Assembly (NCBI RefSeq): GCF_010550695.1 | Contig: NZ_JAAGOB010000008.1 | Span: 186,001 to 250,000 of the forward strand | Source of the DNA: Phytoactinopolyspora alkaliphila | Lineage (GTDB): Bacteria > Actinomycetota > Actinomycetes > Jiangellales > Jiangellaceae | Length of the DNA: 64,000 bases | Direction of reading: 5' to 3' | Shown: piece by piece, positions 1,803 through 45,161 of the stretch | Numbering within the stretch: position 1 is the stretch's first letter | Layout: the number at the start of each line of letters is the position of its first letter | Notes under the pieces: model-generated | Told to the model about the DNA's origin: nothing | The model's input: only the letters and a program-made list of their open reading frames with translations | Databases searched by the model: none | Made by a program: the position numbers and the translations under genes

Positions 1803-1967
1803 GATCATTCCTCAAACAAAAACTACCGGCAAGGTAAGACACATGACCAGCTTTCCAAAGCCGGACACGCCGACCGTGTGCGCAGAACGCCTACTCCCTG
1901 CCGAGCGACAGGGAACCCAGGCGAACTCGCGTGCCTGGGCGTCGGCGCGCAGGGAAGGGCAGCCATC

Positions 1968-6375: not shown

Positions 6376-6376
6376 C

Positions 6377-10552: not shown

Positions 10553-11875
10553 GTGAGGTACGAGAACGACGTCTCCAGGCTCGCCAGGCGGCTTGCAGTC
10601 CTCTTGGCGGACCCGGCACCCGTAAGCCGTGACGAGGTGATCATCGTGGATGCCGCACGCCTGGCTGTCCGACGCTTGTGCCGGCACGTGCTTTCCACGC
10701 TTACACCACTTCCGCCAGCGCCAGGGCCGCCAACGGGCGATTTCGCGGTGAACCCAGTCGCAGATTTGCAACGCCTTCTCGCCCAGGACCCTGTTCCCTT
10801 CGGCCATGCGCAATCGGACTCAGGCTGGGTCGACTACCAGACGACGACAGCAGCGGGCCGCCGTTGGGATGAGGTGCGCCGAGACGCGACGCTTGCCGCG
10901 CTCGAATGGAGCATGATCCGGCCAGACGCCCTGCCAAAAGAACGACCAGCATGGCCAATCATCGCCGACATCGCGGCCATCGCCGAGGCTTCGGCATTGA
11001 TAGACCACGACCTGACAGAAACCTGGGCGGCGGCGCCTGAGGGCGGCCGTGGATGGGACCGCGAGCTGGATGGTTGGATCAGACTGGCCGGCGAACACGC
11101 CCGTCGTCAGATGGCGATGGGCGGTGAGCCCACCACCAGACCGCTTTCCTCACTTCGAGACGACCGCCCTCGGCGGGTCAGGAGTCCTGGCGACATCCCC
11201 GAAGCCACGATTCGCATGAGCCACCTGCTTCGCCGCGCAACCCACCTTCGCCCCGAGGCGGTAAGAGCCGTTGCTCGCGCCCATTCGTCGAGCCTTCTGA
11301 CTATCGCCACACACATGGAACACAGCAGCAGGGGCGAGCTCGCTGGCGTCGTGTCCGGCCTACGGGAAACAGCCGGCGCCCTCGAGCGAGTGGCGGCGCA
11401 TGCACGGTCTCTCCGGTCCATCCACGCCAATGACATGCGGCCTCTGCACCAGGGCGGGCAGTTACGAGCGGTTTGGCGACGGTTGGAGACCCCTACATCA
11501 GCAGACATCTCCCAGAACGACAAGCGCGCCATGGCGAGGAGCGTCCGTCCCTCGATCACAGTCATCTTCGCGCTGGAGAAGCTCATCGAGAGACAGGTCC
11601 ACAACGGACATTGGCTCCAGAGCGGCGTGGCCGAACGATCAATCTGGCGACCCACGAGTCCTTCGGTTTCGTTACGGGTGGTGGCGTCCGCCCGCGAGGC
11701 CGTCGAGCGGGCGAGTCAGTTGATGACCGGCTTGCCGCCGTCCGCCAACCAGTCCCAAGCGCGAACCCAGACCCCTCACCAGATCCTCGCTCCGCAGCTC
11801 TCACGCTCGAGCACTCCATGCCAGTCACTCAGCGCTCCGGGGCACGACCTGCGGTCGCGACCTGGGCGTTCGTGA
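10553..11875 (+). CDS. Hypothetical protein, 440 aa, Arg-rich and helical
   Basis: I do not recognise this protein. The GTG at 10553 is the first plausible start after the preceding gene; an earlier in-frame start would overlap it. The sequence is Arg/Ala-rich with long amphipathic helices (for example around residues 220-300, with SHLLRRATHLRPEAVRAVAR and ETAGALERVAAHARSL) and a polar C-terminus. No enzyme motif or membrane segment is visible. Its 3' end overlaps the 3' end of the relaxase gene on the other strand by 47 bp, so the two convergent transcripts overlap. A DNA-binding or relaxosome role is possible because of the location only. Confidence 0.5.
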   Translation: MRYENDVSRLARRLAVLLADPAPVSRDEVIIVDAARLAVRRLCRHVLSTLTPLPPAPGPPTGDFAVNPVADLQRLLAQDPVPFGHAQSDSGWVDYQTTTAAGRRWDEVRRDATLAALEWSMIRPDALPKERPAWPIIADIAAIAEASALIDHDLTETWAAAPEGGRGWDRELDGWIRLAGEHARRQMAMGGEPTTRPLSSLRDDRPRRVRSPGDIPEATIRMSHLLRRATHLRPEAVRAVARAHSSSLLTIATHMEHSSRGELAGVVSGLRETAGALERVAAHARSLRSIHANDMRPLHQGGQLRAVWRRLETPTSADISQNDKRAMARSVRPSITVIFALEKLIERQVHNGHWLQSGVAERSIWRPTSPSVSLRVVASAREAVERASQLMTGLPPSANQSQARTQTPHQILAPQLSRSSTPCQSLSAPGHDLRSRPGRS

Positions 11876-14800: not shown

Positions 14801-15395
14801 TGTCTACCTGAGCGACTCCGTTCGTGCCGATACGGGTACGCGCAACATCGCGTTCCATCACCCGCAGGACCTCGTCGACCGCGTCATAGTGCGCCTGCGA
14901 GATCTGTTCCCGTAGTCCTTGATCCGCCAGCGCCCACAACACGGAAACGCTCTTCGGTGGCGAGAAGACGCAGTCGAAACCCGAGACCGGCCTATGCGTG
15001 GGACGGCCATGTTCCTCGACCTCTATCGCGGCTGCACGCGCCGCACGGGCAGCATCCGGCAACGACGACGGGAGCGCCTGGACCCTGGCGGCGACCCGTT
15101 CGCGCCAACCCTTCGGGCGGTTGAAACGACGTCCTAGAAGCTCACCCGATGCCGGGTCGGTCCCGTGTTTGAACAGCCTCTCCATCTGCTCCTCCGACAC
15201 CTGCGAACCCGGCGTCAGACCGTCGCCTCCAGCAAGGCCGGCAAGCCCGGAGCCCATCCACCGCCCCGGCGGATGCCCAGACTCCGCGTAGTAGCGGGTC
15301 ATCGGCGAGATAGCCCCCGTCATGCCCTCGCCGTCGACGATTCCGCGCAGCAAGTACGTGTAGCCGTCGCCGGCATGCAGTGCCTTGACTGACAT
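11829..15395 (-). CDS. MobF-family relaxase-helicase (TrwC/TraA type)
   Basis: The 1188-residue protein starts at ATG 15395 (MSVKALHAGDGYTYLLRG). The N-terminal relaxase has the family segment YYAESGHPPGRWMGSG, the FSPPKSVSVLWA strand and the His motif QLHTHVVVANRV that holds the catalytic metal. The second half is a RecD-like superfamily 1 helicase: Walker A VGPAGTGKTTAL, Walker B LIIVDEASLAGT, and AYATTAHRAQGSTVD further on. It should nick one strand at oriT, stay bound to the 5' end and unwind the DNA for transfer. The gene is opposite to the rest of the transfer operon. The longer frame up to 15584 has no supporting start signal. Confidence 0.92.
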   Translation of the reverse strand: MSVKALHAGDGYTYLLRGIVDGEGMTGAISPMTRYYAESGHPPGRWMGSGLAGLAGGDGLTPGSQVSEEQMERLFKHGTDPASGELLGRRFNRPKGWRERVAARVQALPSSLPDAARAARAAAIEVEEHGRPTHRPVSGFDCVFSPPKSVSVLWALADQGLREQISQAHYDAVDEVLRVMERDVARTRIGTNGVAQVDTRGLIAAAFDHYDSRTGDPQLHTHVVVANRVQGPDGRWRTLDSRGSLFPSVVAMSELYDTLIADRLTVRIGVGWERRGEPRKTKNQSWEIDGVSAELIGMFSQRSANIQPVKDELISEWRRAHGREPDDVTVLRLRQQATYMTRPAKELRSLAEMTHEWRTRAANILKVEAPRWAASLARWGKARVRRRSLRMDDVAPELDEMAAAAFTELSEERSTWRTWNIRAAAARASMPYRMKSPADRDALIAAITRRVTAMSIRITPPPLASTPRTFLRSDGTSAFSRTHGDVYTSEAVLAAEDRLQAASAKCTAPGLKLNVIERLVSEPTEQGFVLAEDQATAITQVATSGRCIDVLVGPAGTGKTTALAALRAAWEEQHGSGSVVGLAPSAAAAEILGESLGITTENTAKWLYESSRQRTENARWLFKPGQLIIVDEASLAGTLALDTLREQAERAGAKLLLVGDWAQLSAVDAGGAFGMLVRDRDLPPELTGVRRFTAEWERAASVRLRIGDVDVIDTYLEQGRVHDGSSEDMVDAAYQAWRADEGAGLRSVLIAADRLTVRELNERARADLVTSGDVERGGTGLHDGTSAGVGDRIVTRRNDRYLAAGPRSWVKNGDHWTVRLRHQDGSLTVARADGRGAAITLPTAYVAEDVELAYATTAHRAQGSTVDTAHAIVVEASATREALYVSMTRGKARNTAYVVTDSDDEFPSDESLGAREALTNIMRRSGAELSARETIVDERSRATNIARLAAEYETIAREAEAHHWEGILSTCQLPSGDDVTASPSYAGLVAAMRAAEARGLQPGDLLPRIAAADELLKAEDPLVVLRDRLDQIIDHAAETRSGGASTLIVGLFARSRHVSDPGMRTALDERAALIEIRARMLVHAAISKNASWLSELGQLRSTPDTRLTWERCAMTIAAYREYHGITGARALAPDIGLDWTHRVHRRRAERALNDALYSSGMKGTTNAPLQLEAVTNAQVATAGRAPER

Positions 15396-15811
15396 CACGA
15401 TTGGATTGGCTGCCTCGGTCGGACAGGGACGGCGCGAGAAGCGAGCGCACTGAATCGCACCGTTGGGCCCTCGCTTTCCACCGTGGTCAACGTCCTGTGA
15501 CGCTTGATGGGAGCAGGCAACCGCGCACGTGACAGGCTCGAATGCAGCACCCGCTGAGTTGACGAGGTCCACGCGACACTTCAACGGAGCAGGACGGGCT
15601 CAGGGTGGCTGGACACAAGAACGAGGCGGCCGATTTGGAATAGTCCTCTGCGTCTGGCCCCCTGGTCTCAACGCCAGATGCCGGGCGCGCGTGGTCCAGA
15701 TGATGCCTCGACCATCACCGAAAGTTAGATACTTCGTTGCAGAGTCTTGCTGTCCGTTATGACCTGTGGCAGCATGATCGTCACGTTTTGGGCGGCGGAG
15801 GGGATGACGTG
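15396..15811. other. Intergenic region between relaxase and RHS gene; candidate oriT location
   Basis: About 415 bp separate the divergent relaxase and RHS genes. I see no gene. MobF origins of transfer usually lie next to the relaxase start, so this is the most likely place for oriT, but I could not identify a convincing inverted repeat with an adjacent nick site. The right end carries GGAGGGG at 15798-15804, the ribosome binding site of the RHS gene. The oriT suggestion is positional inference only. Confidence 0.3.
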
Positions 15812-21859: not shown

Positions 21860-22269
21860 CATTTCCGGCGTTCGGTAGGTCGCAGGCTGTGTCCTGTGAG
21901 GGTGACGGTCGCCGCGCGAGTATGTCGTGCGGACCGAATGCCAGACGTGTACCGGATTGGATCGATTCTTGCGATCAGTACGATGCTTAAGGCGCGGGGC
22001 GATTTGGTCGGTCCGCCGACGTGGGCCTCCACGTTTGTCCGTTGACGACTCAAGAGTCATATAGACGCCACCGGGGGCAGCACTTCAACAGCTTTGTTCC
22101 ACGCATCGTGCCCCACCAATCAAAGACGATGCGCGCAATGTGTGCTCGATCGCCGTCGTCAGCGCACTGCTCGTCCGCAGTTGCTCGCCGCTCGCAGATA
22201 TAGCGTCGTGCGCGCCACCGGGCTCCCCTTCAGATGCCAACCAGTTATCTGAGGGAAGGGCGATGCACC
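21860..22269. other. Gene-poor intergenic region with a hairpin over the Spd ribosome binding site
   Basis: About 400 bp show no gene on either strand. At its right end CCTTCAGAT (22227-22235) can pair with ATCTGAGGG (22247-22255) across an 11-base loop, one G-U pair included. The right arm runs into GGGAAGGG (22253-22260), the Shine-Dalgarno sequence of the DUF2637 gene starting at 22270. The hairpin could therefore limit translation of that gene; this is inference. Confidence 0.4.
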
Positions 22270-23133
22270 ATGAACGACGTTGAGCGCGATCACGAGGAAT
22301 CGGCGCACAGGCACAGTCTGGCGATCCCCAGGCGCGTGCTCGTGTCGCTCGCGATTGCTGTCGCCCTGCTCGCCATCGCTGCGTTCACGCTCAGCTTCGA
22401 CGCGTTGCGCGATCTGGCGCTCATCGCGGGCCTCAACCGGCGCTTGGTTTGGTTGTGGCCGATCGTCGTCGACGGGTTCATCGTCATCGCCACGATCGCG
22501 GCCGTCTTACTGCGGCCGCGGGGGTGGAAGGTCGCCTGGTATCCCTGGTTCACGCTCATGCTCGCGGCAGCCGTGAGCGTCTGGGGAAACGCTCTGCACG
22601 CTGCGACACACGCGGATCTCAACCGGGTGACGCTCGTGGTCGCCGCGCTTGTATCCGCCGTTCCTGCGCTCTCTCTATTGCTCGCGTCCCATCTGCTTGT
22701 TGTCCTCTTGGCGCCCCCTGAGAGTGTGCGAGCCGTTCGAGTTGTGCGCAACGCGCACACGACCGAGGCGACCCTGAACAGCGCGCACTCCGACGATCAC
22801 GGTGCGAGCCATTCCAACACGCATGCGCGCGCCACGACTCGTCGTTCAAGCGACCACGGCCGTCAACATGCGCGGCGGGCGATTAGTACGCGCAAGCCGA
22901 CCAACGAAGAACTGCGCGCATGGGTGAACGAAGAGCTGCGTGGAGGACGCGCGGTCACCGGCGTCACGGTAGGTGAACGCTTCCGTGTCTCCGGCGCCAC
23001 CGGTCGCCGGTGGCTGAAATCTCTCCGGGCGACGGCTCAGGATCGAAGTCAATCCAGCCCGACCCCCAACGAAGTCGCGGGCGCTCCGCGCGGAGGCTCA
23101 GGATCTGGATCGAACGGACTCGGCGCGGAGTGA
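22270..23133 (+). CDS. DUF2637 membrane protein with C-terminal HTH (Spd-like)
   Basis: The 287-residue protein starts at ATG 22270 behind GGGAAGGG. Four hydrophobic segments occupy about residues 22-45, 56-78, 88-112 and 118-144, with the FDALRDLA and LWPIVVDGFIVIAT motifs typical of DUF2637. After a His/Arg-rich linker the C-terminus (about 215-265) has a helix-turn-helix, VTVGERFRVSGATGRRWLKSLR. DUF2637 proteins are common on actinobacterial plasmids and integrative elements and overlap the SpdB spread proteins linked to intramycelial transfer. The HTH tail suggests it also contacts DNA. An upstream start at 22234 is possible but lacks a ribosome site. Confidence 0.8.
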   Translation: MNDVERDHEESAHRHSLAIPRRVLVSLAIAVALLAIAAFTLSFDALRDLALIAGLNRRLVWLWPIVVDGFIVIATIAAVLLRPRGWKVAWYPWFTLMLAAAVSVWGNALHAATHADLNRVTLVVAALVSAVPALSLLLASHLLVVLLAPPESVRAVRVVRNAHTTEATLNSAHSDDHGASHSNTHARATTRRSSDHGRQHARRAISTRKPTNEELRAWVNEELRGGRAVTGVTVGERFRVSGATGRRWLKSLRATAQDRSQSSPTPNEVAGAPRGGSGSGSNGLGAE

Positions 23134-23441
23134 AGCCGAGGCATCAAGCACAGAATGCGCAAGTTCTTAGCCAGTTTGCGACAGGCACGAAGCCACCGGC
23201 TGACCAGCAGCGGCGCAGGCCGAGATTACTGTCAACTGGCCCCTTGCATTCTCAAAGATCGCCCGCAAAGATCGCTTACAGCTTCATGATCGAAAGTAAC
23301 GAGGAACGCGATCTCAGGTCATCGATTGACGGGATGTGGTGTCAGATTGGCTGTCAGCCGGAGCAGTGAGCGAGACGAGAACCAGTCAGAGGATTCCTCG
23401 AGGAAAAGCCGTCTTGGAGTCTTTGACCGCCGGAGCTACAG
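23134..23441. promoter_or_regulatory. Leader region of the Tad operon with a 12-bp palindrome
   Basis: These 308 bp hold no gene. A perfect palindrome TTCCTCGAGGAA sits at 23394-23405, about 37 bp before the ATG of the first Tad gene, and GGAG lies 7 bases before that ATG. Short direct repeats (AAAGATCGC) occur near 23260-23280. The promoter could not be fixed. The palindrome is a candidate operator for the whole Tad operon. Confidence 0.35.
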
Positions 23442-24158
23442 ATGAGCAGGGCGGTCGAGGATCGTGTTGGCCGTAAGCAACCAGCGCCCCAGGTGCACCT
23501 CCGCGATGGCAACTCGCACGAGGCACAGCGCGACGTCACAGTCACTCGTGTTCGACACACGCGGCGCAAAGGTCTCATGGGTCTGGGTGTCGCCTTGTTG
23601 GCTTTAGGCGGTGGCGTGGCATACGTCCTAGCCGAGCAATCGAGTGATGCCGTCGACGTCATTGCCGTGGCCAACGACGTCCCCCGTGGCCACGTCATTA
23701 GCGAAGGCGATCTGACGATCGCGTCAACGGGACCTGATCCGGCGCTGACACCGGTACCGGCTTCCCGGATCGATGAGATCGTCGGGATGCGCGCCGTGGC
23801 GGACCTGACGCGCGGCACGCTCCTCAGCGACATCGCGGTCACTGATCAGCTGATACCCGGTGCTGGCGAGACCGTCGTCGGGCTCGCTGTGGCTCCGGGG
23901 CAACTCCCCGATGGCCTCGTCACACCGGGCGCATCGGTACGCGTATTCGATACGCCCAGCCCTGGCGATGAGCCGCCCAAAGCCACTCCGGCCTCGATTG
24001 GGGCGACGGTGGTCAGCATCGTCTACGACGACGTCACGGGCCAGAACCTCGTCAACGTGCTCGTGGACCGCAGCGTCGCCGGTGATCTCGTCGCCCGCAA
24101 CGCAACCGGCCGGATCGGTGTGGCGCTCGACTCGTCGGAGGACGGTGGTACCTCGTGA
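23442..24158 (+). CDS. SAF-domain protein, CpaB/RcpC-like
   Basis: The 238-residue protein has a basic N-terminus, one membrane segment at about residues 46-66 (GLGVALLALGGGVAYVLAEQ) and a SAF domain from about residue 72 (VIAVANDVPRGHVISEGDL, then GMRAVADLTRGTLLSDIAV). CpaB/RcpC proteins of Tad/Flp pili have this order and act in the periplasm or cell wall at the pilus base. The gene opens the Tad operon and overlaps the next gene by 4 bp. A start further downstream is possible because the first 30 residues are not conserved-looking. Confidence 0.75.
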   Translation: MSRAVEDRVGRKQPAPQVHLRDGNSHEAQRDVTVTRVRHTRRKGLMGLGVALLALGGGVAYVLAEQSSDAVDVIAVANDVPRGHVISEGDLTIASTGPDPALTPVPASRIDEIVGMRAVADLTRGTLLSDIAVTDQLIPGAGETVVGLAVAPGQLPDGLVTPGASVRVFDTPSPGDEPPKATPASIGATVVSIVYDDVTGQNLVNVLVDRSVAGDLVARNATGRIGVALDSSEDGGTS

Positions 24159-24949
24159 CCGTCATCGCACTCACCTCCACGCGCGGAGCGCCCGGCGTTA
24201 CGACGGCCGCTCTGGCGCTGACGTTCGCGTGGCCTCGAGCTGCACTCTTCGTGGAAGCGGACGTCTCCGGGAGCTCCAGCGTCAATGCGGGACATCTGCG
24301 TGGGCAAGCCGATCCAGAGCCGAACATCGTCGACCTGGCCGTCGCGTATCGCAACAACGCGCTGACCTTCGACGCTCTCCATCGCGCTGCCCAGGAGCTC
24401 CCCCTGGACTCCAGCCGGATCTTCCTTGCTGGCCTGGCCAACTCGTCACAACGATCGGCGTTCACACCCGCCTTTTGGGAAGCACTGTCGGCACTGCTGA
24501 CAACAATGCCGAATCACGGCATCGACGTGATCATCGATGCCGGTCGCCACGGAATGCGCGCCGCACCTGAACCCTTGCTCCAGGGCGCGGATTTGGTGTG
24601 CGTGGTCACCCGGACCCGGCTCGACCCCATTGTCTCTGTCACGGCCAATGCAGCCGAGATCCGCGGTGCGGCCGACGTCGCTACCGACCGTGTGGGGGTA
24701 ATCGTCGTCGGCGATGGTCAGCCCTACTCGGCCCGGGACGTCGCGCGAACGTCGGGCTTACCGGTCTGGGCGACCATGTCGTGGGACCCGGTAAACGCCG
24801 ACCGGCTCAGTGGTGGCAAGGACATTGCTAGCCGGGCACGTTTCGACAAGTCTCCGTTGATGCGCAGCGCACGATCTGCGGTCAACGAACTCACAAACGT
24901 CGCAAACCGCCGAGAGCGCGTACTTGGCACAGAGATGGGCCGACCGTGA
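24155..24949 (+). CDS. tadZ: TadZ/CpaE-like ParA-superfamily protein, degenerate P-loop
   Basis: The 264-residue protein has the MinD/ParA fold order: a first strand and loop TVIALTSTRGAPGVTTAALAL (residues 2-22), EADVSG after the second strand, and a third strand IDVIIDAGRHG near 126-136. The deviant Walker A (KGGxGKTT in the family) reads RGAPGVTT here and lacks the Lys that contacts ATP, so ATP hydrolysis is doubtful. TadZ/CpaE proteins mark the pole or site of pilus assembly. It overlaps the genes on both sides by 4 bp. The protein lacks the receiver-like N-terminal domain of many TadZ proteins. Confidence 0.75.
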   Translation: MTVIALTSTRGAPGVTTAALALTFAWPRAALFVEADVSGSSSVNAGHLRGQADPEPNIVDLAVAYRNNALTFDALHRAAQELPLDSSRIFLAGLANSSQRSAFTPAFWEALSALLTTMPNHGIDVIIDAGRHGMRAAPEPLLQGADLVCVVTRTRLDPIVSVTANAAEIRGAADVATDRVGVIVVGDGQPYSARDVARTSGLPVWATMSWDPVNADRLSGGKDIASRARFDKSPLMRSARSAVNELTNVANRRERVLGTEMGRP

Positions 24950-26466
24950 CGGAGCCCGACACCGACCTCAGCACGCTGCCTATCCTCCGCGGCAGTAACG
25001 GGCGGGACCGTCGTCCCACGCGGCCAACGCCGCGGCGGCCCGGCGCCATCGGTCTTGCCGCCTCCCCTGTCGCCTCCCCCAGGGTGACCAACGGCGCCAC
25101 GTTGACGGTGAACGGCGTTCTCGATGCCCCAACTGACACGAGCGCCGATGTACTGGATTGGGCACAGGTTCGTAGCTTCAGGCGGATCGCAGCTGACCGG
25201 CTGGCTGACGAGCTTCGGGGCAGCGAAGGTGTCACAGAGCAACGCCGGCGCGAGGTCGGCCGGCGGATCATCCAGCAGATTCTTGACGAACACGTCCGCG
25301 CCGCCTATCAATCCGGCGATCGGAGTTTGACGCCGAACATCCAGGCCGCGTTGGCGAAGGCGATCTTCGACGCGCTGCTCGGCTTGGGAAGGCTCCAGCC
25401 GCTCGTCGACAACGACCGCCTGGAGAACGTCGAAGTATTCGGTTGCGAGAAGGTCGTCACCATTGACTACCACGGCCATACGGAAGAGCTTCCTCCCGTA
25501 GCCGACACCGAGGAAGAACTCCGAGAGATGCTGGCCAACCTTGCCAGCAGAGCCGGAGCAGAGCGCACATTCACCGAGAGCAACCCCGTACTTCACCTCG
25601 CCCTGCCGGGCGGGGCCCGCCTGGCAGCGATCGGGAACCCCGTCGCCGCCGAGACAGCAGTTAACATTCGTGTTCACCGGCTCGTAAACGTCACCCTCGA
25701 AGACCTGACAGTAGAACACGAGACGCTCACACCAGAGCTGGCGGCGTTCCTCCGTGCGGCAGTGCAAGCCCGGCGCAGCATTCTGGTCGCTGGAGTACCA
25801 AACTCCGGGAAAACGACGTTGGTGCGAGCACTGGCCCAGGCCATCGATCCGGCAGACAAGATCGCCACGTTCGAGACCGAATACGAGCTTCGCCTCAACG
25901 AGCTCCTCGCCGCGCGGGTTCGTAAGCCGATTGCACTTGCCGCCCGCCCTGGCGGCGGCGAACGGGGACCCGACGGCCGCCCGATTGGCGAGATCACGCT
26001 CAACGATCTTCTGGAGTCGGCACTGCGGCTGAACCTGAACCGGATGATCGTCGGCGAGGTTCGCGGTTCAGAGGCGCTCACCATGCTGAAGGTCGCCCAG
26101 ACCGCGCCCGGCTCGTTGTCCACCATTCACTCACGCAACGCCCGTGACGCCATTGAGCGGCTGGCGACCTGCGTCTTGGAGGCCGGCGCCCACATCACCG
26201 ATCACCTCGCGTACCGCCTCATCGCCCATCACATCGACCTCATCGTGCATGTCAAGCTACGAACCATCCGCCATGCCGACGGCCGGACCGACCAGAAACG
26301 GTTCGTGGACGAGGTCATAGCCCTCGAACCCGGCGAGCGCGGCGCGCCCGCCATCACGGACGTGTTCCAGCCCGGCCCGCAGGGTGTCGCGGTTCCGGGT
26401 ACGCCGCCCCCGTGGATGGACGACCTTGTCGACGTCGGCTACGCCCCGGCGGAAGGATGGGCATGA
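24946..26466 (+). CDS. tadA: Tad secretion ATPase (TadA/CpaF)
   Basis: The 506-residue protein is a type II/IV secretion ATPase of the CpaF group. It has a Walker A motif LVAGVPNSGKTTLVRAL at about residues 280-296, an Asp box/Walker B in NRMIVGEVRGSEAL at about 364-377, and the STIHSRNARDAIERL His box at about 390-404. The N-terminal 60 residues are disordered. It would drive assembly of the Flp pilus from the cytoplasmic face. It overlaps tadZ and tadB by 4 bp each, so the whole block is one transcript. Confidence 0.9.
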   Translation: MTEPDTDLSTLPILRGSNGRDRRPTRPTPRRPGAIGLAASPVASPRVTNGATLTVNGVLDAPTDTSADVLDWAQVRSFRRIAADRLADELRGSEGVTEQRRREVGRRIIQQILDEHVRAAYQSGDRSLTPNIQAALAKAIFDALLGLGRLQPLVDNDRLENVEVFGCEKVVTIDYHGHTEELPPVADTEEELREMLANLASRAGAERTFTESNPVLHLALPGGARLAAIGNPVAAETAVNIRVHRLVNVTLEDLTVEHETLTPELAAFLRAAVQARRSILVAGVPNSGKTTLVRALAQAIDPADKIATFETEYELRLNELLAARVRKPIALAARPGGGERGPDGRPIGEITLNDLLESALRLNLNRMIVGEVRGSEALTMLKVAQTAPGSLSTIHSRNARDAIERLATCVLEAGAHITDHLAYRLIAHHIDLIVHVKLRTIRHADGRTDQKRFVDEVIALEPGERGAPAITDVFQPGPQGVAVPGTPPPWMDDLVDVGYAPAEGWA

Positions 26467-27353
26467 ACCCACTCCTGGCCGCCGTCGCCGCCGTCACCGC
26501 CTTATCGGGGTTGTGGCTGTTCGCCGCCGGCCTACGACCGGTCCCCGAAGACCAGGTCAGGCGTTCAGCCGACCGCTTGCGCCACCAACTTCACGGACTA
26601 CGTGGCACCACACCGGCCCAACGCCGCAAGCGTGCCGTTCTCGCGGCGGCCATGGGCGCCGGAGCACTCGTCTGGCTCTTCACCGGTTGGATACTCGCCG
26701 TGGTCGCGCTTCCGGCGGCCGCTGCTGGTCTGCCGATCCTGCTGCAGACATCCAGCGAACGGTCCGGGATCGCGCGGCTGGAAGCGATGAGCGACTGGAC
26801 CCGCGACCTGTCCGGCGTCATCGGCGCGGGTATCGGCATCGAGCAGGCGATCCGGGCAAGTCTGACCACCGCCCCGCAACCCATCCGTACGGAGGTCGGC
26901 AGGCTCGTCGCGCGCCTGCAAGCTCGATGGAACACGGAGGACGCGCTACGAGCGTTCGCCGACGACATCGACGACAGCACCGGTGACCTCATCGCTGCCG
27001 CCCTGATCCTTGGTGCCCAGCGTCGCGGCGCTCAATTGGCGAGCGTGCTCACTGGGCTCGCCGACACGGTCGCCGACGACATCCGCATGCGCCGCAATGT
27101 CATCGCCGAGCAGGCCAAGCCTCGCGCCAACGCTCGTATGATCACCGCGATCACCAGTGGCGGCCTGCTGCTCCTCTTCCTGACGCCGTACTCGGAGCCC
27201 TATAGGAATCCCTGGGGGCAGGCGATCCTGACCGTGTATCTCGGGCTCTACGTTGTCTGCCTCATCTGGTTGCGCAACATCACCCGATCGCCGCGCCAGG
27301 CACGCCTCCTCGGGCTGACCCCACGCCATACGACGCAGGGTGCGGCTCGATGA
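26463..27353 (+). CDS. tadB: TadB-like inner-membrane pilus assembly protein
   Basis: I chose ATG 26463 with GGAAGG 6 bases upstream, giving 296 residues. Membrane segments occur near residues 4-22, 60-95, about 235-253 and 255-275. The cytoplasmic domain between them contains MSDWTRDLSGVIGAGIGIEQAI and the later LILGAQRRGAQLASVL..LADTVADDIRMR pattern of the T2SSF/TadB family. TadB and TadC form the platform on which TadA acts. The gene overlaps both neighbours. Confidence 0.85.
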   Translation: MNPLLAAVAAVTALSGLWLFAAGLRPVPEDQVRRSADRLRHQLHGLRGTTPAQRRKRAVLAAAMGAGALVWLFTGWILAVVALPAAAAGLPILLQTSSERSGIARLEAMSDWTRDLSGVIGAGIGIEQAIRASLTTAPQPIRTEVGRLVARLQARWNTEDALRAFADDIDDSTGDLIAAALILGAQRRGAQLASVLTGLADTVADDIRMRRNVIAEQAKPRANARMITAITSGGLLLLFLTPYSEPYRNPWGQAILTVYLGLYVVCLIWLRNITRSPRQARLLGLTPRHTTQGAAR

Positions 27354-28237
27354 CAACCCAGCTGACGATCCTTGCCGGCATGATCGCCGGCTTGGGCGCA
27401 CTCTTGGTCATCCGGGAGTTCGTTCCCCGGCACCCGCATCCGATCGAGGCCGCGAGAAGGCTGACGACCATCACCCGAACCGTGCCAACGACTACAGATG
27501 ACGGCGGAGGACTATCTGTCGGCCTCGGCCGACTGATCCTTCGACGTGGCGGCTCATGGTCCATCTTGCGCATACCCCACAGGGACTTGGCCTTGCTGGG
27601 AATGAGTGTCAGCCGATTCCTCGGCGAGCGTGGTCTCCTCGCGCTGGCCGGACTCGCGTCGCCTACTGCGTCTGCCGTTGGCGCGTCGCTCGCGGGTTGG
27701 ACACCACCGATCGCTGTGCCGGTGGCCGTGAGTCTCCTTGCCGCCACGACCCTATCTTTCCTGCCGTACTACACGGTCGCGCAACAGGCCAGCCGAGCAA
27801 GGGCGGAGTTCGCTCGGGCCATGACCTGTTACGTCGACCTCGTGGCGCTTGAGCGGGCCGGAGGCGCCGGGCCGGTCCAGTCCCTGGAGCACGCCGCGAC
27901 AGTCGGGGACTCCTGGGTCTTCGCTCGGCTACGTGACGAACTCGCGCGTGCGCGCTATCGCGGCACCCCCGCCTGGGACGCGCTGCGCAACGTCGGAGAG
28001 GAGTTGCGGCTCCCGCAACTGGTGAAGACAGGCGACGTGATGAGACTCGCCGGACTCGAAGGAGCGACGGTCTATGACAACTTGAGAGCTCGCGCCATGG
28101 ACATGCGCAACGAACTACTTACCCATGACAAGGCCGAGTCGGGTGTCCGCACGGAGCGCGCGACAGCCCCGGTTGCAGTCACCTCAATCGTCTTCTTACT
28201 GATCCTGGCCACGCCGATGGCACTCGCCATCGGATAG
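27350..28237 (+). CDS. tadC: TadC-like inner-membrane pilus assembly protein
   Basis: The 295-residue protein has the T2SSF fold: an N-terminal membrane helix (about residues 3-23), a pair of helices around 87-140, a cytoplasmic domain with RAEFARAMTCYVDLVALERAGG and LRNVGEELRLPQLVKTGDVMRLAG, and a C-terminal membrane helix (VTSIVFLLILATPMALAIG). It is the usual partner of TadB. It overlaps tadB by 4 bp; 79 bp follow before the pilin gene, with GGAG 8 bp before that gene's ATG. Confidence 0.85.
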   Translation: MTTQLTILAGMIAGLGALLVIREFVPRHPHPIEAARRLTTITRTVPTTTDDGGGLSVGLGRLILRRGGSWSILRIPHRDLALLGMSVSRFLGERGLLALAGLASPTASAVGASLAGWTPPIAVPVAVSLLAATTLSFLPYYTVAQQASRARAEFARAMTCYVDLVALERAGGAGPVQSLEHAATVGDSWVFARLRDELARARYRGTPAWDALRNVGEELRLPQLVKTGDVMRLAGLEGATVYDNLRARAMDMRNELLTHDKAESGVRTERATAPVAVTSIVFLLILATPMALAIG

Positions 28238-28316
28238 CTGCCAGCAATCCGCAGCATCCTGCACCTGGCATGAAGGGCAGAACACGGACCACCCGCACCG
28301 CCCATAGGAGAACCAC

Positions 28317-28538
28317 ATGGACAAGGACCGCATCATCGCAGCGTCGGCATGGCTCGCTGCTGGTGGACAGTGCCTACGCACTCGAATCGCCGCCCGGCTC
28401 GTCCCGGCAGGCCGTGAGAAGGGGGCGTCGGCGCTCGAATACGTCGTGATCGCGGCCATCCTCTTCCCCATCATCGTCGCCGCCGCGATCTGGCTCGGGA
28501 ACGTCATCACGAGCCGGTCGCAAGAGATCACCCCCTGA
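28317..28538 (+). CDS. Flp-type major prepilin
   Basis: The 73-residue protein has a basic leader of about 36 residues ending in EKG, then the class III pilin motif ASALEYVV with the Glu at +5, and a hydrophobic helix (IAAILFPIIVAAAIWLGNVI). Cleavage is expected after the Gly. It is the only very short pilin in the operon and so the likely major subunit. No prepilin peptidase gene is visible in the window, so processing must rely on a host enzyme. Confidence 0.75.
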   Translation: MDKDRIIAASAWLAAGGQCLRTRIAARLVPAGREKGASALEYVVIAAILFPIIVAAAIWLGNVITSRSQEITP

Positions 28539-28545
28539 TTCCGCG

Positions 28546-28926
28546 ATGACTCCCCGGCCGCGTGAACGTGGTTCCATCGCCCTGGAGCAGGTGATCATCT
28601 GGCCAGTCGTGATCGCGACGATCGTTGCGATCATCCAGGGCGCTCTGTGGTTCCACGCCCGCAATGTGGCGTTGTCGGCCGCGCAGGAGGGCGCACGAGC
28701 AGCGTCCGTGGAGACACGCGGCGACGGCGCTGCGCACGCAAAGGCGTTCATCGCCGCCGCCGGTGGAACCAAGGTCATGACCGGGGCAAATGTCTCGCAG
28801 CACGATACTGGGACAACGGTCACGGTCACGGTGTCCGGCTCCGCGCCGTCCCTGGTCCCAGGGATGGCGGGTCCCTCATTCAGCCAGAGCTCCACGGCCC
28901 CCCTCAAGCGATGGACCACGCGGTGA
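28546..28926 (+). CDS. TadE-like minor pseudopilin
   Basis: This 126-residue protein has a short basic start, the RG|SIALEQ processing motif and a hydrophobic helix (VIIWPVVIATIVAIIQGALWF), followed by a small soluble domain (SAAQEGARAASVETRGDG onward). That is the TadE pattern: a pseudopilin built into the base or tip of the Flp pilus. It begins 7 bp after the pilin gene and overlaps the next gene by 4 bp if the GTG start at 28923 is used. Confidence 0.8.
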   Translation: MTPRPRERGSIALEQVIIWPVVIATIVAIIQGALWFHARNVALSAAQEGARAASVETRGDGAAHAKAFIAAAGGTKVMTGANVSQHDTGTTVTVTVSGSAPSLVPGMAGPSFSQSSTAPLKRWTTR

Positions 28927-29369
28927 CTGGGCGGCTGGTGCGGGCCCTCCCACGCTTGCGGGACGACCGTGGTTCGGCAGCGCTGGAGTGGGCAATCTGT
29001 GTGCCAGTCGCCATCCTGCTCATTTCCGCCCTGGCACTCGCCGGCTACGTCGCCTTGGCCGCTGGATCCGTTGAACAAGCGGCCAACGACGCCGCCCGCG
29101 CCGCGTCTTTGGCACGCACACCCACGGCGGCAGTTTCCGACGCCAAGGCCGCCGCCGCGATGTCGCTGGCTGATCAAGGAATCGAGTGCCTGTCCACCAC
29201 AGTGGACGTGGACACGTCGGGATTCCACTCCCCACCAGGGCAGCACGCGACAGTGGAGGTCACCATCGCCTGCCCAATCCGGGTGGCTCACCTGGGCATC
29301 CCCGGTATCACCAGTCGCACCGCTACGTTCACCGGCGTCAGCCCCGTCGATACTTACAGGCAGCGGTGA
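28923..29369 (+). CDS. Second TadE-like pseudopilin
   Basis: I chose GTG 28923, overlapping the previous stop, for a 148-residue protein; ATG 28911 would add four residues. The motif DRG|SAALEWAICVPVAILL has the pilin cleavage Gly, a Glu at +5 and a hydrophobic helix, followed by SVEQAANDAARAASLARTP as in TadE/TadF proteins. Two Cys (in IECLST and TIACPIR) could form a disulfide in the exported domain. It works with the neighbouring TadE- and TadG-like proteins in pilus assembly. Confidence 0.75.
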   Translation: MTGRLVRALPRLRDDRGSAALEWAICVPVAILLISALALAGYVALAAGSVEQAANDAARAASLARTPTAAVSDAKAAAAMSLADQGIECLSTTVDVDTSGFHSPPGQHATVEVTIACPIRVAHLGIPGITSRTATFTGVSPVDTYRQR

Positions 29370-29373
29370 TCGC

Positions 29374-29784
29374 ATGATCCAGCCACTGCGGTCACGAGCG
29401 CCTGAGCGCGGAGCCATTGGCGTGGCGTTCAGCGTCATCGTGCTCATCGGGCTGGCGTTCATCGGGCTCGTGTTCGACGGCGGTTCCAGGCTCCAGGCGA
29501 TGCAGCGTGCCGACAATGCAGCCGCGGAGGCCGCCCGCGCCGCGGGACAGCACATCTCCGGCGCCGACCTCACAGGAGAGACCGGAATCGACCGCGCCGC
29601 CGCCGTAGCCGCCGCACGCAACTACCTCGCGGCGGCAGATGTCGATGGTGACGTCTCCATCCACGGCGACATCATCAGGGTCACCACCGCGACAAGCGAA
29701 CCGACAGTCTTTCTCTCGATCCTCGGGATCACGACAATGAGCGCCACCGGCGAAGCTAGCGTGCGGATCACCACCGGACTATGA
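29374..29784 (+). CDS. TadG-like pilus-associated protein
   Basis: The 136-residue protein starts at ATG 29374, 4 bp after the preceding stop. An ERGAIGVAFSVIVLIGLAFIGLVFDGG segment (about residues 11-37) is the anchored helix of TadG/pilus-assembly TadE-like proteins, followed by RLQAMQRADNAAAEAARAAGQ and a small domain. The VWA domain of full-length TadG is absent, so this is the short form often seen in actinobacteria. It overlaps the lipoprotein gene by 4 bp. Confidence 0.75.
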   Translation: MIQPLRSRAPERGAIGVAFSVIVLIGLAFIGLVFDGGSRLQAMQRADNAAAEAARAAGQHISGADLTGETGIDRAAAVAAARNYLAAADVDGDVSIHGDIIRVTTATSEPTVFLSILGITTMSATGEASVRITTGL

Positions 29785-30410
29785 CGAAGAACGGAACGAA
29801 CAACATGAGCAAATTGCGGTATGCCACGGCGGGCTTGGTCATCTCGCTGGCCCTTCTCACCGCATGCAACAGCGACGACGACTCAGCCATCACCGACCCG
29901 ACACCCGAGGCCGAGACACCGTCGAGGCCGACGCTGACCGCACCGCCCACGTCCAGCCCGGAGGAACAAGCCGCAGAAGAACTTGAGGCGACTTTTCGGG
30001 AGATCATCGCCGCGTGGGACGAATCGAAGATCAACACGTCCGATTATGTCTCATCCGACGATCCTGGCTGGGCCAACGATCTGGTCTCATCGTGGCCGGT
30101 TCACCTTGACGCACAGATCGAGTTGGAGAACTGGACCGCAGCCTGGGGTGCATCAGCCTCCGAACAGGTCGGCGAGACCATCATCGCCACCCATGACATC
30201 ACTGACATCGAGTTCAGCGACGACATGCCGGTCACCGCCGAATCGCGCGCCTGCCTCGACCTGACAGAGATCGAGATCGTGGATTATGACGGCGAGCCAG
30301 CGGAGTTCTCCTACGAACCGACACAGTACCAAACGTGGGACATGACCTGGGACTATGTCGACGAATGGCGGCTGGCGACGATCGGTCTCACAGTGGATGA
30401 ACCGTGTTGA
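29781..30410 (+). CDS. Lipoprotein of the Tad operon
   Basis: The 209-residue protein carries a lipoprotein signal: hydrophobic stretch LVISLALLTAC with the lipobox LTAC, then a Ser/Thr/Pro-rich linker (about residues 35-60). The remaining 150 residues form a small soluble domain of alternating strands that I cannot assign. Two starts are possible, ATG 29781 (overlap with the previous stop) or ATG 29805; the first fits the coupling pattern of the operon. It should sit on the outer face of the membrane and may help secrete or anchor the pilus. Confidence 0.7.
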   Translation: MTKNGTNNMSKLRYATAGLVISLALLTACNSDDDSAITDPTPEAETPSRPTLTAPPTSSPEEQAAEELEATFREIIAAWDESKINTSDYVSSDDPGWANDLVSSWPVHLDAQIELENWTAAWGASASEQVGETIIATHDITDIEFSDDMPVTAESRACLDLTEIEIVDYDGEPAEFSYEPTQYQTWDMTWDYVDEWRLATIGLTVDEPC

Positions 30411-31387
30411 AGATCGTGACGACCATCGTAATATTTCTCACCAGTTCGGCGTTCCTGTTGGCCGGTGTTGCGCTCCCCGCGGCGGCGTCGAACCAGCCAC
30501 CAGACTTCGAATGCCCGGACGGCCACCGGTGGACGGGTTTCGGCTGTGAACCGGAGGACGACGACACCGATCGGGAACGGACGGGATGTGATCAAGCTGA
30601 TCCCACGGTGATGAACATCCCCTGCCGTTTCGGCCCCTTCGTCTGGCATCAGCCGCACGACAGCTACCTCCGGGCACTCACGCAGCAGGAAGCGGCCGAG
30701 TTCCGTGACGACGGCATCTACGGCTGCAGTGGCTGCCTGTACGACGGGCTGTGGCAGGACTACCCGTTGGGTTGGATCTACGAATGGCGCAAGATATCCG
30801 GCATCATTCCACCGTCTGATCCGGTGTGGGGCCAGGTCGGCTTCATCTGGCTCGCGGATGACCCACTCGGCCCGCCACCCGTCGACCCGGCCGCACTCGC
30901 ACAGCAGATCCTGGACGACATGGACCTGCAACCGATCGAGATCGGCATGGCACCGGCACCGATCGACCAACGGCCCGATTCACTCGGACTCGTCGGTGCA
31001 CCCGTGTGGCTCTGGGCCGTCGACCCGTCACCACAGACCTGGGGACCCGTAGAAGACTCCATGTCCGAAGGCGGTATCACTGTCACCGTCACCGCTGCGG
31101 TCGAGGAAGCGTCGTGGGACACCGGCGACGGAAGCATCCGCACCTGCACCGACCCCGGCACGGCGTACCGCGAATCACTCGGCGTGCGTGAATCGCCCAA
31201 CTGCGGCCACACCTACCAGCAGACAAGCCGCCAACATCCGGACCAGGCCTTCACGGTTACTGCTACTACCCACTGGGCCGCCAGCTGGGAGGCATCCACC
31301 GGCGAATCAGGCACGCTCGACGTCGACCCGCTCACCTCGACGGCACGGGTCCGGATCGGAGAGCGCCAGCTGATCGAACAGGAGTAA
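30404..31387 (+). CDS. Secreted Cys-rich protein with PKD-like end
   Basis: The 327-residue protein begins at GTG 30404 (TTG 30407 is an alternative) and has a signal peptide (VIFLTSSAFLLAGVALPAAAS). The mature part has Cys pairs (FECPDG, GFGCEPE, GCSGCLYDG). The C-terminal 120 residues show a PKD-like pattern, ASWDTGDGS, PNCGHTYQ and FTVTATTHWAASWE. Proteins of this kind recur behind Tad genes in actinobacteria; a role in the cell wall part of the pilus machinery is likely but unproven. It overlaps the lipoprotein gene by 7 bp. Confidence 0.65.
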   Translation: MLKIVTTIVIFLTSSAFLLAGVALPAAASNQPPDFECPDGHRWTGFGCEPEDDDTDRERTGCDQADPTVMNIPCRFGPFVWHQPHDSYLRALTQQEAAEFRDDGIYGCSGCLYDGLWQDYPLGWIYEWRKISGIIPPSDPVWGQVGFIWLADDPLGPPPVDPAALAQQILDDMDLQPIEIGMAPAPIDQRPDSLGLVGAPVWLWAVDPSPQTWGPVEDSMSEGGITVTVTAAVEEASWDTGDGSIRTCTDPGTAYRESLGVRESPNCGHTYQQTSRQHPDQAFTVTATTHWAASWEASTGESGTLDVDPLTSTARVRIGERQLIEQE

Positions 31388-31437
31388 GACGCCGCGCAAC
31401 ACGGCAGGACAACAGGCGAACAGGAACGAGGCACGGG

Positions 31438-34400
31438 ATGAGCGTCGGAGCACCGCGAGGCCGATTGTGGATCGTCGACGCGCTACGTGCTCTTGTCGCC
31501 TTCGCTACCCTGACGCTACTCGTCGCAGGCGTCCCCTACGGCCTGTGGTGGGCAGGCGGATGGCCGTGGCCATTCCGCATCCCGAGCCTGGATGACATCA
31601 CGACCGCCTTGACTGCTCCGGATGACGGCTCGCTGTTCATCGGAGCCTTGCTCGTGGCTGGCTGGGTCGGCTGGGCGACCTTCGCCGTCGCCGTCCTCGT
31701 CGAGATCCCGGCCGCGCTGCGCGGGGTCCGGGCACCTCGGCTTCCCGCCCTGGGCACGCAACAGCGGCTCGCCGCCGTCCTCGTCTCCGCCGTCGCGGGC
31801 ATGCTGACCATCGGCCCGGTCGCCACCGCCGAACCAGCCCCATCTCATTCCTTCACTACCGCCGTTCCGCCGGACGACTGGCGACCTGTACCAACCGTCC
31901 CGCCCGAAATGCTCACCGGAGAGCAACCACAGAACCACCAAGAGGAACCCACGAAACCCGACCACGAAGCAGAACCCGACGAGGAAGAGACATCGGAGCA
32001 CGTCGTCCAGCGAGGCGACACTCTCTGGGACATCGCCGCTGCCCTGCTTGGTGATCCGTGGCGATGGGCCGAAATCTTCGAAGCCTCGAAGGACACCATC
32101 CAGCCCGACGGGCGACGCCTCACCCATCCAGATCTGATCTATCCCGGCTGGCACCTGACGATTCCAGCTGTCACGCCTGGACCCGACCAGGCCTCGACGG
32201 TGCCAGACACCGGCGACAACCTCGCCGCCGATCCAACTGCGTCCAGTTCCAATCACGACGGGCTGGTGTCCAACTCGAGCGGCGACGCTCGCGACGCCGA
32301 CACGGAGTCAGCTGCCGATACCAGCCCTGCGGCGGCGGACGAGCGGCAACCCATCCCCACAGGCCTGATCATCAGCGGCCACAACGTAGCGCCCGCGCCG
32401 ACGCCGTCCGGTGAGGACGCCGCGGAATGCGACGTACCTGGCTCCGACTCCTTCGCGGGTCCCGCAACCGATGAGCAGGATCCAGACGACGACTCAGATG
32501 TGGCCGAGCTTGTCCGCACGGCTACCGGTGTCGGTGCGTTGCTCGCGGCAGGAGTCATTGGCCTGCTCACCACACGCCGCGCACTTCAACAACGTCGACG
32601 ACGTGCAGGGCAACGACTCCCCCAGCCCACCGACCTCGCTGCCGCGACAGAGCTCGAACTGCGCGATGTCGCCGACGCTACGCAAGTCGATTTCGTCGAT
32701 CGTGCCCTGCGGACACTCGCCGTGCGGCTCAGCCAACGTGGCCAAGCACCTCCACCGCTACGCCTCGCACGTCTCATCGACGACCAGCTCGAGCTCTATT
32801 TCGAAGAACCGGCCGACCTTCCGCCACCGTTCATCGCCGACGACGAGCGCACGACGTGGATGACTACCGCCGACGCCGACGGCATGCTTGACATCGACGC
32901 CGACGACGTCCCGGCACCGTGGCCAAGCCTCGTCACCATCGGCCACGACACAGACAACGCCCACATCATGCTGGACCTGGAGCACGTCGGAACGCTGAAC
33001 GTCTTTGGTGACGTCGAGTCTTGCCACGCCTTCGTCTCCGCGCTCGCCACTGAGCTATGCACCAGTCGGTGGGCCGACGACATCCAGGTGACCTTCGTGG
33101 GCAGCCACGTCGACCTCGAAGCCCTGCAGACCGGGCGCGTTCGCCACACGACCGACGTCGACCGCCTCATGCGCGAACTCACAGCACGGGCTAATGCTGA
33201 TCGCGAACTACTCCGGCAGTGCCAAACCGACAGCGTCGCCGAAGCTCGCACGAAGCAGACCGCCGCCGGGGCATGGACTCCGGAGATCGTCGTCGTCACC
33301 GAACCATTGCCGCTCTCCCAGCAGCAACAACTCAGTGCCCTGATCAGTCAAGAGCTCCGGCTCGCGATCGCTGCGGTCGTCCTCGGCCCTGGTAGCGCAG
33401 GCGGGACGGCCATCCGAATCGCCAATCCGAGCACAGCGGTGCTTGAACCCCACGACTTGGTGCTGCGTCCGCAGCAAGTCAGGTCGCCCGTGCGGGATCG
33501 GATCATCGACCTGGTGACGACCGCCGACGGCGAACTTGTCGGCCAACCCCTCATGGAGATACCCCTGGACCAGATCCCGCAAAGCGCTGTCGCTGCAGCC
33601 TTGGAGAGCGTCTCCCCGACCGCTGCTGACGATCAAGACCTGAATCGCCCTCCCTCAGGCCCCAGTGAGGTACACGGTTCACGCCGCGCCAACGGCGAAA
33701 CGGCACCGGAAAGTACACCAACACGCCATCCGCGCGTCCTCCTCCTCGGAGAGCCCGACGTCGTCGGCGCCCAAGGGCCGCTGGAGAAGACCAAACGCAA
33801 CCAGGCCGTCCAGCTCGCCTGCTACCTATCGCTGCGGCCCGGCCGTCACGGATCGGCGATGGACGAAGCGATATGGCCCAACGGACGCCCAGGGACGAAT
33901 ACCCGCGGCACAGCAGTGTCAAGGCTGCGCCGATGGCTCGGCCCCCACCCGGACGACGACACGTACCTTCCGCACGCCACCGACGACATCTACCAGTTTC
34001 ACCGTGACGTGCAATCTGACTGGCAAGACTGGTGCGACATCCTCCCCGACGGACTCGTCCAGGCCAGTAGCGACGATCTGTGGCGAGCTCTCGACCTTGT
34101 TCGGGCACGACCGCTATCCGGGCGCGGTGCCTCATACACCTGGGCCGACATGCACGCCCACGAGATGACCTCCGCCATCATTGACGCCTGCCATGAACTC
34201 GCCGAACGAGCACTCAAGGCCGGTGATCTGCGCGCCACGCAGACCGCCGCGCTACGCGGCCTCGACATCGAACCGGCCTGCGAACTCCTCTGGAGAGACC
34301 GTCTCAAAGCCGAGGCCCGACTCGGCAACCGCACCCGTACGCTCGAACTCATCGGCCGACTCCGCGTTCTCGCGGACGAGCTCGGGAGCGACCTCGAAGA

Positions 34401-34452
34401 CGAAACCATCGCCCTCATCGACCAGATTGTGCAACGCAGCCGCTCGAGCTGA
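31438..34452 (+). CDS. LysM and BTAD-domain membrane protein
   Basis: The 1004-residue protein combines parts not usually joined outside actinobacterial Tad loci. Two N-terminal membrane helices (about 15-37 and 60-85) and a third near 120 precede an acidic linker and a LysM domain (HVVQRGDTLWDIAAALLGDPWRW, about 187-243). Another membrane helix lies at about 362-377. The middle part (about 400-740) is unassigned. The C-terminus has a winged-helix-like segment (VLLLGEPDVVGAQGPL at about 762) and a BTAD helical repeat ending near 1000 (RALDLVRARPLSG, AERALKAGDL). It may sense cell wall status outside and signal inside. It ends the operon. Confidence 0.8.
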   Translation: MSVGAPRGRLWIVDALRALVAFATLTLLVAGVPYGLWWAGGWPWPFRIPSLDDITTALTAPDDGSLFIGALLVAGWVGWATFAVAVLVEIPAALRGVRAPRLPALGTQQRLAAVLVSAVAGMLTIGPVATAEPAPSHSFTTAVPPDDWRPVPTVPPEMLTGEQPQNHQEEPTKPDHEAEPDEEETSEHVVQRGDTLWDIAAALLGDPWRWAEIFEASKDTIQPDGRRLTHPDLIYPGWHLTIPAVTPGPDQASTVPDTGDNLAADPTASSSNHDGLVSNSSGDARDADTESAADTSPAAADERQPIPTGLIISGHNVAPAPTPSGEDAAECDVPGSDSFAGPATDEQDPDDDSDVAELVRTATGVGALLAAGVIGLLTTRRALQQRRRRAGQRLPQPTDLAAATELELRDVADATQVDFVDRALRTLAVRLSQRGQAPPPLRLARLIDDQLELYFEEPADLPPPFIADDERTTWMTTADADGMLDIDADDVPAPWPSLVTIGHDTDNAHIMLDLEHVGTLNVFGDVESCHAFVSALATELCTSRWADDIQVTFVGSHVDLEALQTGRVRHTTDVDRLMRELTARANADRELLRQCQTDSVAEARTKQTAAGAWTPEIVVVTEPLPLSQQQQLSALISQELRLAIAAVVLGPGSAGGTAIRIANPSTAVLEPHDLVLRPQQVRSPVRDRIIDLVTTADGELVGQPLMEIPLDQIPQSAVAAALESVSPTAADDQDLNRPPSGPSEVHGSRRANGETAPESTPTRHPRVLLLGEPDVVGAQGPLEKTKRNQAVQLACYLSLRPGRHGSAMDEAIWPNGRPGTNTRGTAVSRLRRWLGPHPDDDTYLPHATDDIYQFHRDVQSDWQDWCDILPDGLVQASSDDLWRALDLVRARPLSGRGASYTWADMHAHEMTSAIIDACHELAERALKAGDLRATQTAALRGLDIEPACELLWRDRLKAEARLGNRTRTLELIGRLRVLADELGSDLEDETIALIDQIVQRSRSS

Positions 34453-39185: not shown

Positions 39186-39189
39186 CTAC

Positions 39190-44718: not shown

Positions 44719-44763
44719 CACTCATAATCCCTTGGCCGTGGGTTCGAGTCCCACCCGCCCCAC
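44719..44763 (+). repeat. tRNA-Met 3'-end fragment, att-like repeat copy 1
   Basis: These 45 bases are identical to 46231-46275. They encode the 3' half of a tRNA-Met: the anticodon loop CTCATAA (anticodon CAT), the 3' anticodon stem, the variable loop, the T arm GTGGGTTCGAGTCCCAC and the acceptor strand CCGCCCCA. There is no 5' half, so no functional tRNA. Tyrosine-integrase elements that insert at a tRNA 3' end leave exactly such a fragment at their far end. The intact tRNA would lie to the left of the window if this is the right att of the conjugative element. Confidence 0.75.
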
Positions 44764-45154: not shown

Positions 45155-45161
45155 TTGCGGC

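Follow-up and report, generated by a model that had tools for sequence, protein, structure and literature searches.

A Tad/Flp pilus operon in the backbone of a tRNA-bounded integrative and conjugative element of Phytoactinopolyspora alkaliphila, a candidate mating pilus

What does a pilus operon do among the genes of a conjugation system? The question is raised by a 64,000-nucleotide stretch of the 5.5-Mb genome of the soil actinobacterium Phytoactinopolyspora alkaliphila (Jiangellaceae), hereafter the window (G000:C32:186001-250000), in which a full Tad/Flp operon follows a set of DNA transfer genes. We found that the operon lies within a 69.7-kb integrative and conjugative element (ICE) bounded by repeats, and we lean towards reading it as a type IVc (Tad/Flp) pilus in the backbone of a MobF/type IV secretion system (T4SS) ICE that serves as a mating pilus, i.e., one that may attach donor to recipient.

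On its left, the element is bounded by a tRNA-Met gene, which a tyrosine integrase (PF00589) directly adjoins, and on its right by a 46-nt direct repeat of the 3′ end of that gene (Table 1), so that the att-like repeat reported in an earlier note on this DNA proved to be real. Backbone and cargo between these repeats comprise an M23 peptidase, TrbL-like, SCO6880, VirB4-like and TraD proteins, a single-strand DNA-binding protein (SSB), a primase/polymerase (Prim-Pol), a MobF relaxase, an Rhs protein, the Tad operon, a dCTP deaminase, and a cyclic-oligonucleotide-based anti-phage signalling system (CBASS). The relaxase (PF08751) and the coupling protein (PF02534/PF12696) scored above model cut-offs, while the VirB4 assignment combines family models below their cut-offs with a conserved position. 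Its integrase and att repeats are sited at a tRNA gene and it encodes a relaxase, a VirB4-like ATPase and a coupling protein, a gene content that makes it a T4SS-type ICE, predicted to excise and transfer. The MFS gene to the left of tRNA-Met has orthologues in four congeners, none of them beside a tRNA-Met, and a search of the same four congener stretches did not recover the genes of the right flank; no empty site could therefore be shown.

The Tad operon proper (23442-34452, from the SAF/CpaB gene to the LysM-BTAD gene) consists of intact genes, all on the plus strand and with overlapping or near-overlapping frames, and every gene that the earlier note had listed downstream of DUF2637 is present, in order. 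It includes the hallmarks of a Tad/Flp locus, namely a TadA/CpaF ATPase (PF00437) with two tandem PF00482 proteins above cut-off (TadB and TadC), an Flp pilin with a G/xxxxEY prepilin motif, and TadE/TadF/TadG-type pseudopilins (TadE1, TadG and, by motif and homology, TadE2). When all loci were scanned with the strict Flp motif, only 17 of 100 were positive because the pattern was too narrow, and a looser scan of 14 loci yielded G/xxxxE pilin-like segments in most of them. A dedicated prepilin peptidase (TadV/CpaA), usual but not universal in such loci, was found neither in the window, as the earlier note had remarked, nor in the rest of the ICE, and the single PF01478 gene of the genome is located on contig C4 beside chromosomal genes including shikimate dehydrogenase. 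Among the family loci compared, BLAST with three A24 queries identified an A24 peptidase only in pCPRO01, pAL1 and, weakly, Micropruina. Processing of the ICE pilins is probably carried out by the host prepilin peptidase.

Three congeners carry sister ICEs with the same gene order: M23; TrbL-SCO6880-VirB4-TraD; DUF4913 and Prim-Pol; the relaxase in reverse orientation; and DUF2637-SAF-TadZABC-TadE/G-lipoprotein-PKD-LysM. Each of these elements is bounded by repeats of a different tRNA gene, which is tRNA-Val (27+15 nt, one mismatch) in the first, tRNA-Glu (61 nt) in the second and tRNA-Arg (43 nt) in the third; the repeats enclose 74, 70 and 92 kb, respectively, with Tad inside each, and the four Phytoactinopolyspora species thus present four different tRNA sites (Met, Val, Glu, Arg). 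DNA alignment of the ICEs of G001 and G004 returned only five common blocks >300 bp, all of them backbone (M23, TrbL-TraD, DUF4913/PrimPol, relaxase, and DUF2637-Tad-LysM), among which the Tad block was both the longest (12.4 kb) and the most alike (91%). The CBASS and dCTP deaminase of the window have no counterpart in any of the three sister ICEs, and its Rhs protein has no match in the ICEs of G004 and G002 and a weak one, elsewhere in the element, in G001. Since Tad is among the few blocks common to the sister ICEs while cargo varies, it behaves as backbone and not as cargo.

We then evaluated how far this arrangement extends across Actinomycetota. A scan with nine TadA proteins yielded 80 loci in named genomes, of which 78 include SAF and TadZ and 58 a PKD-like gene; in 21 of them, the 10-kb flank contains a MobF relaxase. 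The Tad gene order, kept gene for gene in the three congeners and as a core in most of the 80 loci from other genera, is conserved far beyond chance in these comparisons. The test of co-occurrence that the earlier note had called for was strongly positive: across 48 genomes searched whole, MobF was found ≤50 kb from TadA in 37 of 68 loci (TadA at ≥275 bits) when 3.9 were expected under uniform placement, and TraD in 41 against 2.9 expected, counts uncorrected for shared ancestry to which at least a dozen named genera contribute. Either gene occurred within this distance at 48 of the 68 loci, compared to 2 of 12 loci with weaker TadA, and in 21 loci MobF was only 3.4-3.8 kb away from TadA. Short contigs, of which there are many, make these counts conservative. 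Tad, TrbL, SCO6880, VirB4, TraD and MobF share one cluster in stretches from Nocardioides, Georgenia, Actinotalea and Cellulomonas, and three of the elements from these genera could be delimited with Tad inside. The N. daejeonensis element occupies a tRNA-Met site and spans 56.5 kb with a 36-nt repeat, that of N. phosphati lies between two copies of tRNA-Met separated by 63 kb, and that of Cellulomonas septica (tRNA-Pro) spans 85 kb with a 37-nt repeat. The elements of Georgenia and Micropruina (tRNA-Arg), where no repeat was found, and of N. gansuensis, whose stretch contains no tRNA, were not delimited. Overall, Tad lies inside seven repeat-bounded elements at five tRNA types, and the pairing of pilus and transfer genes recurs in related elements across three orders. 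The proposal that Tad is built into a conjugative element is thus borne out in four species and beyond the genus, and its membership of the ICE is, from these comparisons, well supported.

Divergence of the two modules was compared through crude identity distances for TadABC and for VirB4-TraD, using Mantel tests in which taxonomy was controlled at three levels for the partial values. In the 20 elements of one T4SS lineage, the two modules co-diverged closely (Mantel r = 0.97; partial r = 0.87, p = 0.0002). A second T4SS lineage (~30% identical; five elements) carries the same Tad clade. We read this as Tad and T4SS travelling together within a lineage, with Tad apparently paired with at least two T4SS lineages.

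Table 1 Transfer, Tad and attachment-site features of the P. alkaliphila ICE, in window coordinates unless otherwise indicated; percentages are as found in sister ICEs.
Feature	Coordinates	Strand	Evidence and remarks
attL = tRNA-Met itself	G000:C32:162580-162656		~23.4 kb left of window base 1, outside the window
TrbL/VirB6-like membrane protein	1931..3421	+	Pfam TrbL_4/TrbL, weak, below cut-off; 65-70% in three other Phytoactinopolyspora ICEs
SCO6880-family T4SS protein	3431..4894	+	NCBIfam NF042935, E=1e-108
VirB4-like ATPase	4891..6375	+	NCBIfam VirB4-type models, best E=4e-16, below cut-offs; 70-75% in sister ICEs
TraD/VirD4 coupling protein	6242..8140	+	PF02534 and PF12696; frame given at its maximum length, actual start probably internal
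SSB	8226..8750	+	PF00436
Prim-Pol	8955..10130	+	PF09250
MobF (TrwC) relaxase-helicase	11829..15584	-	PF08751, E=5e-87, and AAA_30 helicase
DUF2637 (Spd-like) membrane protein	22234..23133	+	PF10935; directly before SAF in four Phytoactinopolyspora ICEs
SAF/CpaB (RcpC)	23442..24158	+	PF08666
TadZ-like protein	24155..24949	+	No Pfam match; position and deviant Walker A 'RGAPGVTT'; homologue in 78/80 loci
TadA/CpaF ATPase	24946..26466	+	PF00437; TIGR03819 below its cut-off
TadB	26412..27353	+	PF00482
TadC	27350..28237	+	PF00482
Flp pilin, 73 aa	28317..28538	+	Prepilin motif KG/ASALEYVVIAAILF, i.e. KG/ASALEYV; same motif in two sister ICEs
TadE-type minor pilin 1 (TadE1)	28546..28926	+	G/SIALEQ; PF07811 above cut-off
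TadE-type minor pilin 2 (TadE2)	~28911..29369	+	G/SAALEW; sequence; 57-69% in sister ICEs
TadG-like protein	~29374..29784	+	PF13400 just under cut-off
Secreted lipoprotein-like protein	29781..30410	+	Signal peptide with LTAC lipobox (sequence); 41-54% in sister ICEs
Secreted PKD-like protein, candidate pilus/cell-surface factor	30404..31387	+	PKD models match relatives; AlphaFold2 model
LysM-BTAD membrane protein	31438..34452	+	PF01476, PF03704
Internal att-like copy	44720-44763	.	44 nt of tRNA-Met 3′ end
attR	46232-46277	.	46-nt direct-repeat copy of tRNA-Met 3′ end

These patterns have to be weighed against other explanations of the locus. That an old chromosomal Tad operon merely had transfer genes inserted alongside by chance, the outcome that would have overturned the proposal of the earlier note, is very improbable: wherever an element could be delimited, Tad lies between its ends (seven elements, five tRNA types), the linkage recurs in many genera, and the other T2SSE genes of the genome lie on other contigs, even though a TadABC tree places the operons of the Phytoactinopolyspora ICEs as sister to one chromosomal Jiangella/Haloactinopolyspora locus, a relationship which indicates that such operons have passed between chromosome and ICE in this family. 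It is rather unlikely, in our view, that Tad is cargo benefiting the host cell through adhesion, biofilm formation or colonisation, kept for carrier fitness and helping transfer at most indirectly. Such a role would agree with Tad pili acting as adhesins in Bifidobacterium and Actinobacillus (as cited in PMC5696575), with the chromosomal location of related Tad loci in Jiangella, and with the existence of elements that have this T4SS and no Tad; however, true cargo differs among the sister ICEs and Tad does not, Tad adjoins the relaxase or the T4SS in several genera and orders, and a tracking of T4SS divergence at r = 0.97 would be unexpected for cargo. We consider it improbable that the operon encodes a machine for DNA uptake or for contact-dependent toxin delivery, e.g., of the neighbouring Rhs protein. 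Uptake has a precedent in the Micrococcus luteus Tad locus, needed for transformation (cited in PMC5696575), but we noticed no competence genes among those of the element, and while Myxococcus depends on a Tad-like apparatus to kill prey on contact (PMC8460266), and a 1791-aa Rhs protein is encoded directly before DUF2637 here, the Rhs gene falls outside the conserved Tad block and varies between the sister elements as described above.

Several observations do weigh against a mating pilus that belongs to this conjugation system. Five elements with T4SS and MobF displayed no Tad match in the stretches read (three in Jiangella, one in Haloactinopolyspora and one in genus g2, all Jiangellaceae), so that this class of T4SS does not depend on Tad, and each Jiangella and Haloactinopolyspora genome examined contains two chromosomal Tad loci that belong to this clade and have no T4SS in their vicinity. 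In P. halotolerans (G002), the Tad proteins are more divergent from those of the window (49-65% identical) than the T4SS proteins are (64-75%), which indicates that the modules can be exchanged. When both T4SS lineages were pooled, the correlation fell to r = 0.39, and to a partial r of -0.02 once taxonomy was controlled, because the Tad of the second lineage is no more distant than that of the first. Finally, only 1 of 207 plasmid records with this TadB was typed as conjugative and 44 as mobilizable, a typing that may miss actinobacterial systems. Incomplete lists of plasmids with the SCO6880-type T4SS and with TadB had no record in common among the matches listed (60 each).

If the operon does encode a mating pilus, transfer might proceed as follows. 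The host prepilin peptidase would cleave the Flp and minor pilins, and TadA with TadB, TadC and TadZ would extend the pilus and, by analogy with CpaF, retract it too; Tad pili are built, and in Caulobacter also retracted, by CpaF/TadA (PMC12019362, PMC11300603). The pilus, perhaps together with the secreted lipoprotein and the PKD-like protein, would then capture recipients and pull them in, after which the TrbL-SCO6880-VirB4 channel with TraD would pass the MobF-nicked strand. This division of labour between recipient capture by a pilus and DNA passage by the T4SS is proposed by analogy, because type IV pili promote mating in liquid in the case of IncI and are essential for transfer in that of PAPI-1 (review PMC12857230). 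Whether an ICE family spanning at least three actinobacterial orders uses such a retractable, backbone-encoded and host-peptidase-matured Tad pilus as its mating-pair organelle is, in our estimate, evenly balanced.

The pili of R64 and PAPI-1 are of the IVb class, and the best reading of our data, which we hold to be somewhat favoured, is that the window operon encodes an analogous type IVc mating pilus of monoderm ICEs. Like the window ICE, IncI R64 and PAPI-1 encode a type IV pilus beside the transfer genes of a conjugative element (PMC12857230), although theirs are diderm type IV pili and not Tad, and the T4SSs are unrelated. T4SS-type actinobacterial ICEs (Ghinet et al. 2011, PMC3218068) and the ICE-like islands of P. 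freudenreichii (PMC5644110) share with the window ICE an integrase, a MobF relaxase, VirB4 and a VirD4-like coupling protein, and the islands also PrimPol and a murein endopeptidase; unlike the window ICE, however, no Tad locus is described in Ghinet et al., where 'Tad' does not occur, and the pili of P. freudenreichii are of the sortase type. The nearest precedent found is a Cutibacterium acnes linear plasmid (PMC5696575), a mobile element with Tad beside VirB4-, TcpC- and FtsK-like genes, for which a TadE2 protein was detected in the surface fraction and appendages were seen. This precedent differs in being a plasmid and not an ICE, and its authors call the link between Flp pili and conjugation unclear. 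The plasmid Tad loci of pAL1, pFiD188, pCPRO01 and pYJNG likewise include SAF, TadZABC, TadE/G, a LysM protein and a PKD-like protein, with MobF directly upstream of Tad in pYJNG, but they are plasmid-borne, pAL1 and pCPRO01 each encode an A24 peptidase themselves, and none is annotated as encoding mating pili. A 2025 review states that Gram-positive conjugation systems encode no conjugative pili. The searchable literature yielded no account of Tad as part of an ICE or as a mating pilus in Actinomycetota, but it leaves out most subscription papers and preprints, so that priority is not certain.

A mating role, if true, would provide a pilus-based contact mechanism for Gram-positive conjugation; actinobacterial conjugation would gain a pilus, suggesting how donors of these elements find recipients. 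Use of the host prepilin peptidase could make ICE host range depend on that enzyme. The same reading would offer a candidate function for the many plasmid-borne Tad loci in Actinomycetota, and reduce the open pilus-conjugation question of the C. acnes plasmid to a simple knockout experiment.

Related Tad loci were also observed away from transfer genes. Jiangella genomes G010, G014, G015, G017 and G018 contain paired chromosomal Tad loci of the same clade, ~215-280 kb apart, which are possibly domesticated, and congener G001 has a second Tad operon (L090; G001:C10:138065-155174) that includes three PKD-like copies, while the ~80 kb around it contain no T4SS. The PKD-like protein was rejected as a marker of mobile Tad, as full-length homologues occur in Jiangella and other lineages without nearby TraD (class-wide sample). 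The window's own copy matches no PKD model itself; such models match 16 and 11 of 30 homologues. Its AlphaFold2 model (mean pLDDT 79.9, pTM 0.61) is confident only in the C-terminal half (mean pLDDT 91-98 per ten-residue block, residues 161-320), and a profile search of its alignment against PDB sequences gave no match. The PKD-like and lipoprotein products are secreted, to judge from sequence, and could act at the pilus tip or cell surface.

A second T4SS block occurs in the P. alkaliphila genome near a contig end (L236; G000:C33:232765-238607; TraD, VirB4, SCO6880 and TrbL, 65-74% identical), with no Tad in the 31 kb read there. At the right end of the ICE, the 1.5-kb segment between the two att copies (44720-46277) encodes a Phd/YefM antitoxin and a RelE-like open reading frame, and a partial repeat of the integrase 5′ end lies beyond attR; the double att copies and this partial repeat look like tandem accretion at the tRNA-Met site. 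The Rhs/YD-repeat protein (15737-21525, with DUF6531), just 5′ of DUF2637, is followed by a DUF7878 protein that may be its immunity partner. Downstream of the Tad operon, the CBASS (37111-41097) comprises a patatin-like effector, a CD-NTase and an E1-E2 fusion, and between the two lies the dCTP deaminase (34896-36110, reverse strand), which has no PADLOC match; nucleotide-depleting deaminases can be anti-phage. Cargo at the left end of the ICE includes a protein that has both a GmrSD C-terminal and a RAMA domain, as well as an IetA-like AAA ATPase beside a DUF6414 protein (L005:18496-19962, L006:13691-16422), and these GmrSD/RAMA and IetA-like genes are possible defence genes.

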